Positions 10,325 through 22,877 of a DNA stretch of 64,000 nucleotides are shown piece after piece (position 1 is the first letter of the stretch; each line of letters opens with the position of its first letter). A program made the translations under genes and the position numbers. The stretch comes from Verrucomicrobiia bacterium. Its GTDB lineage: Bacteria; Verrucomicrobiota; Verrucomicrobiia; Verrucomicrobiales; Akkermansiaceae. A model generated the notes under the pieces. That model was not told where the DNA came from. It saw nothing but the letters and a program-made list of their open reading frames with translations, and did not search any database. The stretch spans positions 24,347 through 88,346 of the forward strand of contig JAUIJD010000016.1 of assembly GCA_030431475.1 (NCBI GenBank). The letters run 5' to 3'.

Positions 10325-10363
10325 CAATCCCCCTCGTCCGCAGCGAATCGCGTCCGAGCCGCT

Positions 10364-10398
10364 GTCATTCGACATTTGTCATTTATCATTCGTCATTG
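10364..10398 (+). repeat. Heptad array (GTCATTC type)
   Basis: GTCATTC GACATTT GTCATTT ATCATTC GTCATTG, five exact 7-nt units. Confidence 0.8.
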
Positions 10399-10416: not shown

Positions 10417-11163
10417 GTGACCGATCTCGAACTCACCGTCCACGCCGCCCACGAGGCCGGCAAGCTCCTCCGCGAACACTTCGGGTCCGAGGCCGTCGTC
10501 GACGAGGCGAGCCATCACGACATCAAGCTCGCCCTCGACAAGCAGTCGCAGGACCTCATCCAGTCCATCCTCCTCACCGCCCGCCCCGACGACGCGTTCT
10601 ACGGCGAGGAAGGCATCGGCGGAAAGCAGGACGCCGAGCGCCAGTGGATCGTCGATCCCATCGACGGCACGGTGAACTACTTCTACGGCATCCCGCACTT
10701 CTGCGTCTCCATCGCCCTCCGTGTGGGCGAGGAGATCGTGCTCGGTGTCATCCACGACCCCATCGTCGGCGAGACCTGGACCGTCGAAAAGGGCGCCCCC
10801 CCCATGCTCGACGGCAAACCGATCCGCTGCAGCCAGCGCTCCAAGCTCGAGGAGAGCGTCCTCTTCATCGGCTGCGGCAAGGACGAGGAGGCGCTGCGTC
10901 TCGGTCTCGAGCGATTCCGGAAGGCCTCCGTACGGGCCCGCAAGATGCGCATGATGGGCTCCGCGGCGCTCGGACTCGCCTACATCGCCACCGGCCGGCT
11001 CGACGCCTACGTCGAGTCCCGTATTTCCCTCTGGGACATCGCCGCCGGCAAGCTCCTCGTCGAGGCCGCCGGCGGCAAGGTCGATCTCGGCCCGTCCACC
11101 AAGGAAGACTCCTGGTCCATCGTCGCCACCAACGGCAGGATCCCGATCGAAGAAATTCTGTGA
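10417..11163 (+). CDS. suhB: Inositol monophosphatase family protein
   Basis: GEEGIGGKQDAERQWIVDPIDGTVNYFYGIP and SLWDIAAGKLLVEAAGG; GTG start just downstream of a heptad array. Confidence 0.9.
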   Translation: MTDLELTVHAAHEAGKLLREHFGSEAVVDEASHHDIKLALDKQSQDLIQSILLTARPDDAFYGEEGIGGKQDAERQWIVDPIDGTVNYFYGIPHFCVSIALRVGEEIVLGVIHDPIVGETWTVEKGAPPMLDGKPIRCSQRSKLEESVLFIGCGKDEEALRLGLERFRKASVRARKMRMMGSAALGLAYIATGRLDAYVESRISLWDIAAGKLLVEAAGGKVDLGPSTKEDSWSIVATNGRIPIEEIL

Positions 11164-11167
11164 CGAA

Positions 11168-11202
11168 CATCCAACATCGAACGTCCAACATCGAACTTCG
11201 AA
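11168..11202 (-). repeat. Heptad array (TTCGATG type), left arm of cassette
   Basis: Minus strand TTCGAAG TTCGATG TTGGACG TTCGATG TTGGATG. Confidence 0.9.
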
Positions 11203-11208
11203 GGCTCC

Positions 11209-11583
11209 ATGAGTGAACAAGACTATGATCTTGAAGACCGCCTCCTCGACTACGGAGCGCGCATCATCACGCTTACCAAGGCGCTCCCGAGCGACTTCGC
11301 CGAACATCACATCGCCCAGCAGTTGCTCCGTTCAGGCACCGCACCCCTTTCTCATCACGGCGAAGCCCAGGCGGCCGAATCCCCCGCCGACTTCATCCAC
11401 AAGATGAGCCTCGCGCTCAAGGAGCTTCGTGAGTCGTGGCGTTGGCTGCGCCTGCTCGACCATGCGAAGCTGACTCCCGAAGGTCGCAGCATCACGCCAC
11501 TCATCGACGAGACCGACCAGCTCATCCGGATCTTCGTCGCCAGCATCGCCACGGCCCGCCGCAACCGGGACAAGGACAAGTAG
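11209..11583 (+). CDS. Four-helix-bundle protein (23S rRNA intervening-sequence protein / bAvd-like family)
   Basis: DYDLEDRLLDYGARIITL..LPSDFAEHHIAQQLLRSGTAPLSHHGEAQAAESPADFIHKMSLALKELRESWRWLRLL.. matches the IVP/four-helix-bundle pattern. Confidence 0.88.
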   Translation: MSEQDYDLEDRLLDYGARIITLTKALPSDFAEHHIAQQLLRSGTAPLSHHGEAQAAESPADFIHKMSLALKELRESWRWLRLLDHAKLTPEGRSITPLIDETDQLIRIFVASIATARRNRDKDK

Positions 11584-11618
11584 CCGCATCCACTCGAACG
11601 ATGCCTGAATCCATCGAC

Positions 11619-11656
11619 TTCGACGTTCGATGTTGGACGTTCGATGTTGGATGTTC
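11619..11656 (+). repeat. Heptad array (TTCGATG type), right arm of cassette
   Basis: TTCGACG TTCGATG TTGGACG TTCGATG TTGGATG TTC; inverted relative to 11168-11202. Confidence 0.9.
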
Positions 11657-11668
11657 CAGCCTCCGGCC

Positions 11669-12133
11669 ATGACCGGCCTCGGCTACGACATCCACCGCTT
11701 CGCGGAAAACCGCCCGCTCATCCTCGGCGGCGTGGAGATCCCCCACACCCACGGCCTCGACGGACACTCCGACGCCGACGTGCTCTCCCACGCCATCGCC
11801 GATGCCGTGCTCGGCGCGCTCGGATTGCCCGACATCGGCCACTGGTTCCCTCCCGGTGACCCCGGGTGCAAGGACATCTCCTCGCTCAAGATTCTCGAGA
11901 AGGCCGCCGCCCTGATCCGCGAGCGCGACCACGAGATCGTGAACGTCGATGCCACCCTGATCGCCGAGGCGCCGAAAGTGCTGCCCCATCGCGAGGCGAT
12001 GCAGCAGAACATCGGCCGCTCCCTCGGCATCCCGCCGGAGCGGGTCGGCATCAAGGCCACCACCAACGAGCTCCTCGGCGCCATCGGTCGGCGGGAAGGC
12101 ATCGCCGCCATGGCCATCGCGGAGGTCAGGTAG
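11669..12133 (+). CDS. ispF: 2-C-methyl-D-erythritol 2,4-cyclodiphosphate synthase
   Basis: GYDIHRF, LGGVEIPHTHGLDGHSDADVLSHAIADAVLGALGLPDIG, IKATTNELLGAIGRREGIAAMA; start placed after repeat-derived MLDVRCWMFQPPA. Confidence 0.96.
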   Translation: MTGLGYDIHRFAENRPLILGGVEIPHTHGLDGHSDADVLSHAIADAVLGALGLPDIGHWFPPGDPGCKDISSLKILEKAAALIRERDHEIVNVDATLIAEAPKVLPHREAMQQNIGRSLGIPPERVGIKATTNELLGAIGRREGIAAMAIAEVR

Positions 12134-12237
12134 CCCTTCCGGAGCATCGACATTCCTGTCGATCACCGGACACCGCCCCCTGGGGTATCAATGAAGGCGG
12201 TGGGCGCTTGCATCCCGTACCGCGGACCCCCGGAAAC

Positions 12238-14691: not shown

Positions 14692-14877
14692 TTTGGAGTG
14701 CGGAGGCTTGCCTCCGCTTTGCGGCAGGCGGAGCTTGCTCCGGCCGGGGGCGAGCCGCCATCGGATGCCGCCCTCCCAAACATCCGCCGGAAGCGTTCGC
14801 TTCTTCAGGATGACCTCCTCCACCGGCACCAGCTCGACCGGCGCTCGAAAAGCGGAGGCAAGCCTCCGCACTCCAAA
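14692..14877. repeat. MITE-like element with perfect 29-bp terminal inverted repeats
   Basis: TTTGGAGTGCGGAGGCTTGCCTCCGCTTT (14692-14720) and its exact reverse complement (14849-14877). Confidence 0.85.
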
Positions 14878-20357: not shown

Positions 20358-22877
20358 ATGTCTTCCGAGCCCGAACTCCTCAGCCCCGCCGGGAACTGGG
20401 ACTGCGCCCGCGCGGCCGTGGCCGCGGGCGCCGACGCGATTTTCTTCGGCCTGCCCGCCTTCAACGCCCGCCTGCGCGCCGACAACTTCACCAACGAGGA
20501 CCTGCCGGAGCTGATGGACTTTCTCCATCGCCACGGCGTGAAGGGCTTCGTGACGATGAACACCCTCATCTTCACCGGCGAACTTGAGGCCGCCGAGGCC
20601 CAGCTGCGCCGCGTCGCCGAGGCCGGCGTCGACGCCCTCATCATCCAGGATCTCGGCCTGGCGAAGATGGCCCGCGAGATCGCGCCGGAGGTCGAGCTCC
20701 ACGCCTCGACCCAGATGACCATCACCTCCCCCGAGGGCCTCGCCTTCGTCGAGAGCCTCTTTCCGCTCGAACGCGCCGTCCTCGCCCGCGAGCTTTCGGT
20801 GAAGGAGATCGAGCGCTTCGGCCATCCGGCCACCACCCCCCTCGAGGTCTTCGTCCACGGCGCCCTCTGCGTCGCCTACTCCGGCCAGTGCCTCACCAGC
20901 GAGTCGCTCGGACAGCGCTCCGCCAACCGCGGCGAGTGCGCCCAGGCCTGCCGCATGCCCTACGAGCTGGTCGTCGATGGCGAGACCCAGCCGATGGACG
21001 AGGTCCGCTACCTCCTCAGCCCGCAGGACCTCGCCGCCGTCGACCTCATCCCCGACCTCGTCCGGGCCGGCGTGAAATCCTTCAAGATCGAAGGCCGCCT
21101 CAAGTCCCCCGAGTACGTCGCCGCCGTCACCCGCGTCTACCGCAAGGCCCTGGGGAGAGCGGGTTTCCAACCCGCTGCACCAAGCCGGGCCGACCGCTAC
21201 GCGCTCGAGATGACCTTCTCCCGCGGGCTCACCACCGGCTGGCTCGGCGGCACCAACCACCCCTACCTCACCCACGGCCGCTTCGGGAAGAAGCGCGGGC
21301 CCTTCCTCGGCACCATCACCGAGGCCCAGAACGGATGGGTCCGTCTCGACACCCCTCCCGCCGACCACACGCCACCTCTCAAAGCCGGCGACGGGGTCGT
21401 CTTCGATGCCGGGGAAAACCGCGACCTCGAACAAGGCGCCTCCATCTGGAAGATCGAAGGCGACCGCATCATCTTTCACCGCACCTACAGCGGCATCAAC
21501 TTCGACCGCATCCGCCCCGGCGTCACCCTCTACAAGACCTCCGACCCCGCCCTCGAGTCCGAGATCCGCAAGTTCTGGCAAAACGCCAAACTCCCCGAAA
21601 CGAAGACCCCGCTCCACCTCACCGTCAGCGGCCGCCCCGGCGAACCTCTCACGCTTTCGTCTTCGTTCGATGTCGAGCGTCCGATGTTCGATGTTCGATG
21701 TTCGACTTCCAGTCCGCTGGAAGTCGCCGCCAAACACCCCCTCACCACCGACACCCTCGAAAAGCAGCTCGGCCGCCTCGGCGACACCCCGTTCGAACTC
21801 GCCACCCTCGACAACCGGCTCGAAGGCGACTGCCACCTCGCCCTCTCCGAACTCAACCGCCTCCGGCGTGAACTCGTCGAGCGTCTTTCCACCACCCCCG
21901 GGCCTCGCTCCCCGAAAGCCACCGCCGTTTCCCACCGCGATCTTCTTCCCGAACCTTCGAAGTTCGATGTCGGACGTTCGATGTTGGACGTTCCCCGCCT
22001 TTCCGTCCTCTGCCGCACCCTCCCCCAGGTCGAGGCCGCGCTCGGGTCGGACATCGGCACCATCTACTGCGACTTCGAGGACCCGCGACGCTACAAGGAC
22101 GCCGTCGCCCTCGTCCGTGAAACTTGTCCGACGAAGCCTTGGCGAAGTCGGATTCATCTGGCCACCCCGCGCATCATCAAGCCCGGCGAGATCGGCTACC
22201 TCAAGCACATCGAGCGGGCCGAACCCGACGGCCTGCTCCTCCGCAACCTCGCCTCCCTCGACTACTACAAGGATCGGAGCGACCTGATCCGCACCGCCGA
22301 CTTCTCACTCAACGTCGCCAACCCGATCACCGCCCGCCTGCTCAAGGAAGCCGCCCGGCTCGATCACCTGACGATCTCCTACGACCTCAACATCGGCCAG
22401 GTGCTCGACCTGCTCGCCAAGGCACCCGCCGACTGGTTCGAGCTGACCCTCCACCAGCACATGCCCCTGTTTCACATGGAGCACTGCGTCTTCTGCACCT
22501 TCATGAGCGAGGGCACCGACTACCGCGACTGCGGACGCCCCTGCGAGAAGCACGTCGTCCACCTCCGCGACCGCGTCGGACAGCTCCACCGCCTGCAGGC
22601 CGACGTCGGCTGCCGCAACACCCTCTTCAACGGCCGCGCCCAAACCGGTGCCCGTTTCTACGACGAACTCCGTAGCACCGGCCTCTCCCGCTTCCGCATC
22701 GAACTCCTCGACGAGGACCGCGAAGCCGCCACCCGCACCATCCAGGCCTACCAGGCCCTGCTCGACGGAAACCTCGCGCCCGCCGACCTCCTCGCCCGCG
22801 TCACCGCTCTGGAGAAGCTCGGCGTCACGGAAGGCACGCTGGCCGGAGCCGGCATCGGCGCTTCCCAAGCGCCTTGA
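20358..22877 (+). CDS. Peptidase U32 family protein carrying multiple in-frame repeat insertions
   Basis: ELLSPAGNWDCARAAVAAGADAIFFGL, ELHASTQMTI, FVHGALCVAYSGQCLTSESLGQRSANRGECAQACRMPYEL, KSFKIEGRLKSPEYVAAVTRVYRKAL. Confidence 0.93.
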   Translation: MSSEPELLSPAGNWDCARAAVAAGADAIFFGLPAFNARLRADNFTNEDLPELMDFLHRHGVKGFVTMNTLIFTGELEAAEAQLRRVAEAGVDALIIQDLGLAKMAREIAPEVELHASTQMTITSPEGLAFVESLFPLERAVLARELSVKEIERFGHPATTPLEVFVHGALCVAYSGQCLTSESLGQRSANRGECAQACRMPYELVVDGETQPMDEVRYLLSPQDLAAVDLIPDLVRAGVKSFKIEGRLKSPEYVAAVTRVYRKALGRAGFQPAAPSRADRYALEMTFSRGLTTGWLGGTNHPYLTHGRFGKKRGPFLGTITEAQNGWVRLDTPPADHTPPLKAGDGVVFDAGENRDLEQGASIWKIEGDRIIFHRTYSGINFDRIRPGVTLYKTSDPALESEIRKFWQNAKLPETKTPLHLTVSGRPGEPLTLSSSFDVERPMFDVRCSTSSPLEVAAKHPLTTDTLEKQLGRLGDTPFELATLDNRLEGDCHLALSELNRLRRELVERLSTTPGPRSPKATAVSHRDLLPEPSKFDVGRSMLDVPRLSVLCRTLPQVEAALGSDIGTIYCDFEDPRRYKDAVALVRETCPTKPWRSRIHLATPRIIKPGEIGYLKHIERAEPDGLLLRNLASLDYYKDRSDLIRTADFSLNVANPITARLLKEAARLDHLTISYDLNIGQVLDLLAKAPADWFELTLHQHMPLFHMEHCVFCTFMSEGTDYRDCGRPCEKHVVHLRDRVGQLHRLQADVGCRNTLFNGRAQTGARFYDELRSTGLSRFRIELLDEDREAATRTIQAYQALLDGNLAPADLLARVTALEKLGVTEGTLAGAGIGASQAP
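21159..21175. repeat. Mini-hairpin in frame inside peptidase U32 gene
   Basis: GCGGGTTTCCAACCCGC. Confidence 0.75.
21666..21726 (+). repeat. Heptad array (TTCGATG type, six units) plus adjacent hairpin, in frame inside peptidase U32 gene
   Basis: TTCGATG TCGAGCG TCCGATG TTCGATG TTCGATG TTCGACT then GACTTCCAGTCCGCTGGAAGTC. Confidence 0.9.
21956..21993 (+). repeat. Heptad array (TTCGATG type) in frame inside peptidase U32 gene
   Basis: TTCGAAG TTCGATG TCGGACG TTCGATG TTGGACG TTC. Confidence 0.9.
22127..22152. repeat. Palindromic repeat in frame inside peptidase U32 gene
   Basis: TCCGACGAAGCCTTGGCGAAGTCGGA. Confidence 0.75.
22858..22874. repeat. Mini-hairpin at the 3' end of peptidase U32 gene
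   Basis: GGCGCTTCCCAAGCGCC followed by TTGA containing the stop. Confidence 0.75.

Follow-up and report, generated by a model that had tools for sequence, protein, structure and literature searches.

The analysed window, a stretch of 64 kb, holds a compact cassette between suhB and ispF in which a single small gene is enclosed by two inverted heptad arrays (Table 1). On the minus strand the left array (11168-11202) reads TTCGAAG TTCGATG TTGGACG TTCGATG TTGGATG. The right array (11619-11653, plus strand) repeats these heptads with TTCGACG in first place, so that 1 of 35 positions differs, and the inverted match extends over 39 nt with one mismatch. The ispF start codon follows 12 nt past the right arm. 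A double-heptad pattern matched 11 times in the window against 0.05 expected, and the reversed pattern, searched as a control in the whole genome, gave no match; the arrays are therefore not due to chance. The first-pass annotation had described a 124-aa four-helix-bundle gene at 11209-11583, flanked by inverted five-heptad arrays with about one difference over 35 nt, separating suhB from ispF and lacking a transposase. The family scores and the four-helix model given below agree with this, as do the exact count of differences and the PF00459 and PF02542 matches of the neighbours, and the four-helix bundle is the sole gene of the cassette. The distances of 7 and 36 nt needed correction: the ATG is 6 nt away from the left array, and 35 nt separate the stop codon from the right one.

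Table 1. Coordinates of the cassette, its neighbours and related arrays in the window.
Feature	Position	Strand	Basis or remark
suhB, inositol monophosphatase family, upstream neighbour	10420..11163	+	PF00459 E 5e-56
Left arm, heptad array matching the inverted right arm (38/39)	11165..11203	-	sequence
IVP/S23-family four-helix-bundle protein gene, 124 aa	11209..11583	+	PF05635, TIGR02436, AlphaFold, fold matches
Right arm, heptad array TTCGACG TTCGATG TTGGACG TTCGATG TTGGATG	11618..11656	+	sequence
ispF, downstream neighbour	11669..12133	+	PF02542 E 1.6e-61
Solo array of window heptad type, in frame in U32-peptidase-like gene (FDVERPMFDVRCST)	21665..21705	+	some 8 residues missing in many relatives
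Further solo array in that U32-peptidase-like gene (SKFDVGRSMLDV), same orientation	21956..21993	+	sequence
Inverted heptad hairpin without gene, 60-nt loop	59124..59259	.	arm type that of IVP cassette L004, which lies elsewhere in the genome

Both Pfam (PF05635, 42.1 bits, cut-off 33.8, E 1e-10) and NCBIfam (TIGR02436 'four helix bundle protein', 68.2 bits, cut-off 24, E 6.5e-19) place the cassette protein firmly in the IVP/S23 family. Its AlphaFold model (pLDDT 93.8) consists of four long helices. The nearest solved folds are both from the S23 family, namely 2rld (TM 0.80/0.88) and 2gsc (TM 0.79/0.83), while Avd (4dwl) and subunits of the DGR ribonucleoprotein are further off (TM about 0.7). 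To our knowledge, the IVP family is not known as an enzyme or a nuclease. The genome has 14 PF05635 matches, corresponding to about 13 genes, and the family is present in 190 of the 289 sampled genomes of the phylum (E <= 1e-15). At orthologous loci the median dN/dS of IVP genes is 0.10, which indicates purifying selection.

Other repeats occur in the neighbourhood of the cassette. A solo array of another heptad type (CATTCGACATTTGTCATTTATCATTCGTCATTGG) lies at 10363-10397, shortly before the start of suhB. Near 12140-12166 there is a hairpin repeat not built of heptads (GGAGCATCGACATTCCTGTCGATC), which recurs in the genome (L156 9880-9955, L163 5576-5914, L164 15379-15439), and a further recurrent inverted repeat family (TTTGGAGTGCG..GAGGCTTGCCTCCGC) is present at 14692-14877 and in L163 at 73-222. 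No Rfam family matched in the 64-kb window.

The first-pass annotation had counted a lack of flanking arrays at most IVP genes of relatives as evidence against a cassette; the opposite was seen. We sampled 101 IVP loci at order level, from this genome and 37 relatives, and compared the left flank of each with the reverse-complemented right flank by local alignment; arms were called at a score of at least 14, and displaced intervals of the same length at the same loci served as controls. Inverted arms were found at 82 of the 101 loci compared to 8 of 606 controls (Mann-Whitney p 5e-48), leaving about 19% of the IVP loci without detectable arms. When the flanks of these loci were compared in direct-repeat orientation, almost no signal was obtained. 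The arms are periodic, with self-identities of 0.54, 0.50 and 0.43 at lags of 7, 14 and 21 compared to about 0.27 elsewhere. Within the phylum, 20 of 28 IVP loci had inverted arms, against none of 168 controls. A species-genome scan with the IVP alignment gave 80 loci from many phyla, of which 78 were testable; here inverted arms were present at 60 of 78 loci and at 6 of 468 controls, and the heptad period was still sharper (0.68, 0.66 and 0.65). In one planctomycete, the inverted heptad arrays on the two sides of an IVP gene (L187) are each about 240 nt long.

The letters of the arms vary from locus to locus, already among the IVP genes of this genome, while both sides of each locus match. 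Every IVP locus has its own heptad, which rules out a TTCGATG-specific arrangement, and the cassette idea of the first-pass annotation does not hold in the form tied to that heptad. As a family control we used the small GIY-YIG genes and uvrC genes of the same relatives, and neither had heptad arms; the arms are thus not something that small orphan genes have in general. Long direct repeats (scores 50-100) stand instead around a few of the small GIY-YIG genes of relatives, the orphans L277, L283 and L286, and suggest a separate type of element. Because the same bracketing recurs around IVP genes, with letters that differ by site and sides that match, the arrangement suggests a hairpin element of an unrecognised type that spreads in gene spacers. 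No prior description of such cassettes was found in the open-access literature, so an earlier account elsewhere is possible.

The window cassette, which is not inside a 23S rRNA gene, is typical in its setting: cassettes lie mostly between co-directional genes, in operon spacers. Their gene is oriented sense rather than antisense in 74 versus 6 cases in the order and in 82 versus 2 across phyla, counts that are approximate since the crude gene caller misassigns some genes (the window suhB was called antisense).

An IVP gene between suhB and ispF was found in the window genome only. In four species the junction is empty, with spacers of 9-16 nt. In six others it holds gene-less heptad arrays of at least three heptad types, the inverted pairs being clear in G006, G011 and G012 and weaker in G004, G008 and G009. 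G001 and G010 have one array-like stretch each, and two species have a different gene, dioxygenase-like by eye (L125 of G002 and L126 of G014). In G002 this gene is followed by a TTCGATG-type array and then ispF. The first-pass annotation had reasoned that relatives sharing the order suhB-IVP-ispF without arrays would speak against a cassette; no such relative was seen, the junction being empty or occupied by a gene-less array or hairpin or by another gene. A second site is likewise polymorphic for presence and absence: the spacer that carries a gene-less copy in G009 (L315a) is uninterrupted in three other species. No target-site duplication was identified at the empty sites, whose spacers are too short and diverged to reveal one reliably.

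Hairpins were also surveyed in 464 kb of this genome (G000) and in 400 kb of the congener G009. In G000 the strong long-loop inverted heptad-like pairs are mostly arms of IVP cassettes, four of them belonging to the window cassette, L002, L008 and L011. In G009 there are six gene-less heptad hairpins, and five of these share the arm type AATCACCAATC... with the G009 IVP cassette L117; the gene-less hairpins and L117 also have subterminal sequence in common. A pattern search for L117-type arms gave 41 copies in G009, fewer in congeners and 0 for the reversed control. In a weak density comparison, genomes in which the sampled IVP genes bear other arms had AATCACC-type arms as well, if somewhat less densely. 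Copies elsewhere in the genome were more frequent per arm for a genome's own IVP arms than for the arms of other genomes (1.09 vs 0.33 and 3.75 vs 0.22), with the whole excess in G009 due to one of its IVP cassettes.

Solo arrays form a further class. The two arrays near 21.7 kb (Table 1) are in direct orientation in a U32-peptidase-like gene that carries PF12392. The first-pass annotation had listed them, at 21666 and 21956, as array-only derivatives of the cassette; the arrays are real, but they lie in frame within a coding gene, which rules them out as gene-less cassettes. The other window-type solo arrays are in spacers, just upstream of start codons. Elsewhere in the same genome (L034, C93:99437) a heptad array is situated in a ribosomal-protein operon, directly before an rplO-looking gene.

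We next consider how the two arms of a locus are related. Arm-to-arm identity is 0.88 in register and 0.66 when the arms are slid by one heptad, and the arms are therefore copies of each other, beyond merely sharing a heptad consensus. Many IVP loci are orthologous according to flanking synteny. In 95 of 97 orthologous pairs the two arms of a locus matched each other better than an arm matched its counterpart in the other species (medians 22.5 vs about 10). Since the arms change and yet still match each other while the gene is conserved at orthologous loci, they evolve in concert. The IVP gene itself is thus old, under selection and mostly vertically inherited. With most loci old and vertical, mobility of the gene-bearing form is rare. 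At non-syntenic loci, protein subfamily and arm type are significantly but weakly correlated (Mantel r 0.16, 0/500 permutations). These data bear on the proposal of the first-pass annotation that the cassette may be a selfish or exapted element whose protein recognises its arrays as RAYTs recognise REPs. The gene-less copies with resident IVP arms (L117 in G009) lend support to the comparison, whereas a restriction to TTCGATG is not supported, nor is recent movement for most IVP loci, which are inherited vertically.

Several known systems resemble these cassettes in part. The 23S rRNA intervening sequence (IVS) of Coxiella burnetii has a terminal stem of 28 bp, carries an S23 ORF in its loop and is excised by RNase III (PMC4990558). 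It has in common with the window-type cassettes the protein family, the ORF as loop of a long terminal inverted repeat and a size of about 430-490 nt, but the latter lie in spacers of protein-gene operons, have arms made of heptad arrays and occur as gene-less copies. In REPIN/RAYT systems, too, distinct, single-copy protein genes are flanked by their own repeat type, which varies between protein genes, and inverted doublets of the repeat occur as gene-less spacer hairpins (PMC3116915). Such gene-less hairpins of a resident repeat type are seen here in the L117 copies of G009 and in the window hairpin with L004-type arms. RAYTs, however, are Y1 tyrosine transposases, whereas the cassette's sole gene encodes a four-helix bundle; REPs are short palindromes without heptad periodicity, and IVP hairpins have lower copy numbers. 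As with MITEs and their autonomous transposons, the short-loop elements of G009 have their ends and their subterminal sequence in common with a copy that bears the gene, but that copy has no transposase, and no target-site duplication was identified in the short, diverged spacers. Finally, TAACTGA heptamer direct repeats have been described in marine Beggiatoaceae, Cyanobacteria and Bacteroidetes (PMC4679880). These intergenic heptamer arrays also often stand just upstream of start codons; they differ in being direct arrays of one heptamer, described with no mention of an S23 or helix-bundle gene.

Our best reading is that the cassettes may constitute a system of the REPIN/RAYT kind, its heptad hairpins being served by a non-enzymatic four-helix-bundle protein of their own. 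More specifically, we propose a widespread two-part unit, an IVP/S23 gene in the loop of a heptad-array hairpin, whose protein would recognise its own arrays and whose hairpins would be copied into operon spacers, and we judge this to have about an even chance of being correct. IVP binding, its part in the spread and the role of host enzymes are what we infer; recognition by IVP and spread through host replication are proposed because the anatomy is that of the 23S IVS and the population behaviour that of REPINs and RAYTs. The IVP protein, probably as an oligomer, would recognise its own unit's heptad arrays in the form of DNA, and hairpins with such arms, gene-bearing or gene-less, would get copied into operon spacers. 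Breakage and joining would be left to host enzymes, probably at replication forks, because the IVP family is no known nuclease. Template switching of the hairpin at replication forks could also keep both arms matched.

An alternative places the element at the RNA level: an IVS-like cassette in a polycistronic mRNA, whose arms pair, whose stem is cut by RNase III and whose hairpin is bound by IVP, which thereby controls either its own translation or how the downstream gene is expressed. We retain this explanation, though we think it rather unlikely, because of the strong sense orientation between co-directional genes and the proximity of an arm to the start codon (6 nt in the window). The predicted RNA fold of the window cassette has a long, stable terminal stem (z = -7.15), the Coxiella IVS is a precedent for such a stem with RNase III excision, and the purifying selection on IVP is also in keeping with it. 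The sense bias, however, may reflect only selection against antisense transcription or a need for a promoter. A selected sense pairing should moreover favour G:U over A:C mismatches, whereas no excess of G:U was seen (161 vs 182, p 0.28); arm matching is therefore strand-symmetric, and a DNA process fits better than a selected sense RNA stem. Nor does an RNA stem need heptad periodicity, and single arrays as well as in-frame coding arrays occur.

The same strand symmetry, together with the concerted evolution of the arms, would also suit a passive association, in which replication slippage and template switching make and homogenise hairpins and IVP genes tolerate or prefer such spacers with their protein uninvolved. 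Many hairpins indeed have no gene. Yet 77-81% of IVP genes are bracketed across phyla compared to about 1% of controls, small GIY-YIG genes are not, and resident arm types are enriched where the genome has the matching IVP, so that we regard a passive association as improbable. The homology of the fold to bAvd of DGRs (PMC10053308) and the similarity of the model to Avd and DGR ribonucleoprotein subunits would allow a DGR accessory unit moved by reverse transcription, but the best folds are those of the S23 family. A reverse transcriptase domain (PF00078) is absent from the 95%-complete genome, which makes retro-mobility unlikely; we consider this origin very improbable altogether, and for this genome it is close to refuted.

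Returning to array recognition by IVP, a broader form of the proposal seems to us plausible but somewhat likelier to fail than to hold. S23/IVP genes across bacteria would be the factors resident in a so far unrecognised class of heptad-arm hairpins, and their protein, neither a transposase nor a nuclease, would recognise its own arrays; the 23S IVS would be the rRNA branch of this class, and the arms would be rewritten in concert. The arrays give orphan IVP genes a testable candidate ligand and a genetic context, and the concerted evolution of inverted arrays can be traced at dozens of orthologous loci. The proposal would link rRNA intervening sequences to a broader hairpin element and, if true, an element that spreads in the service of a non-enzymatic protein's own repeats would be a novelty.
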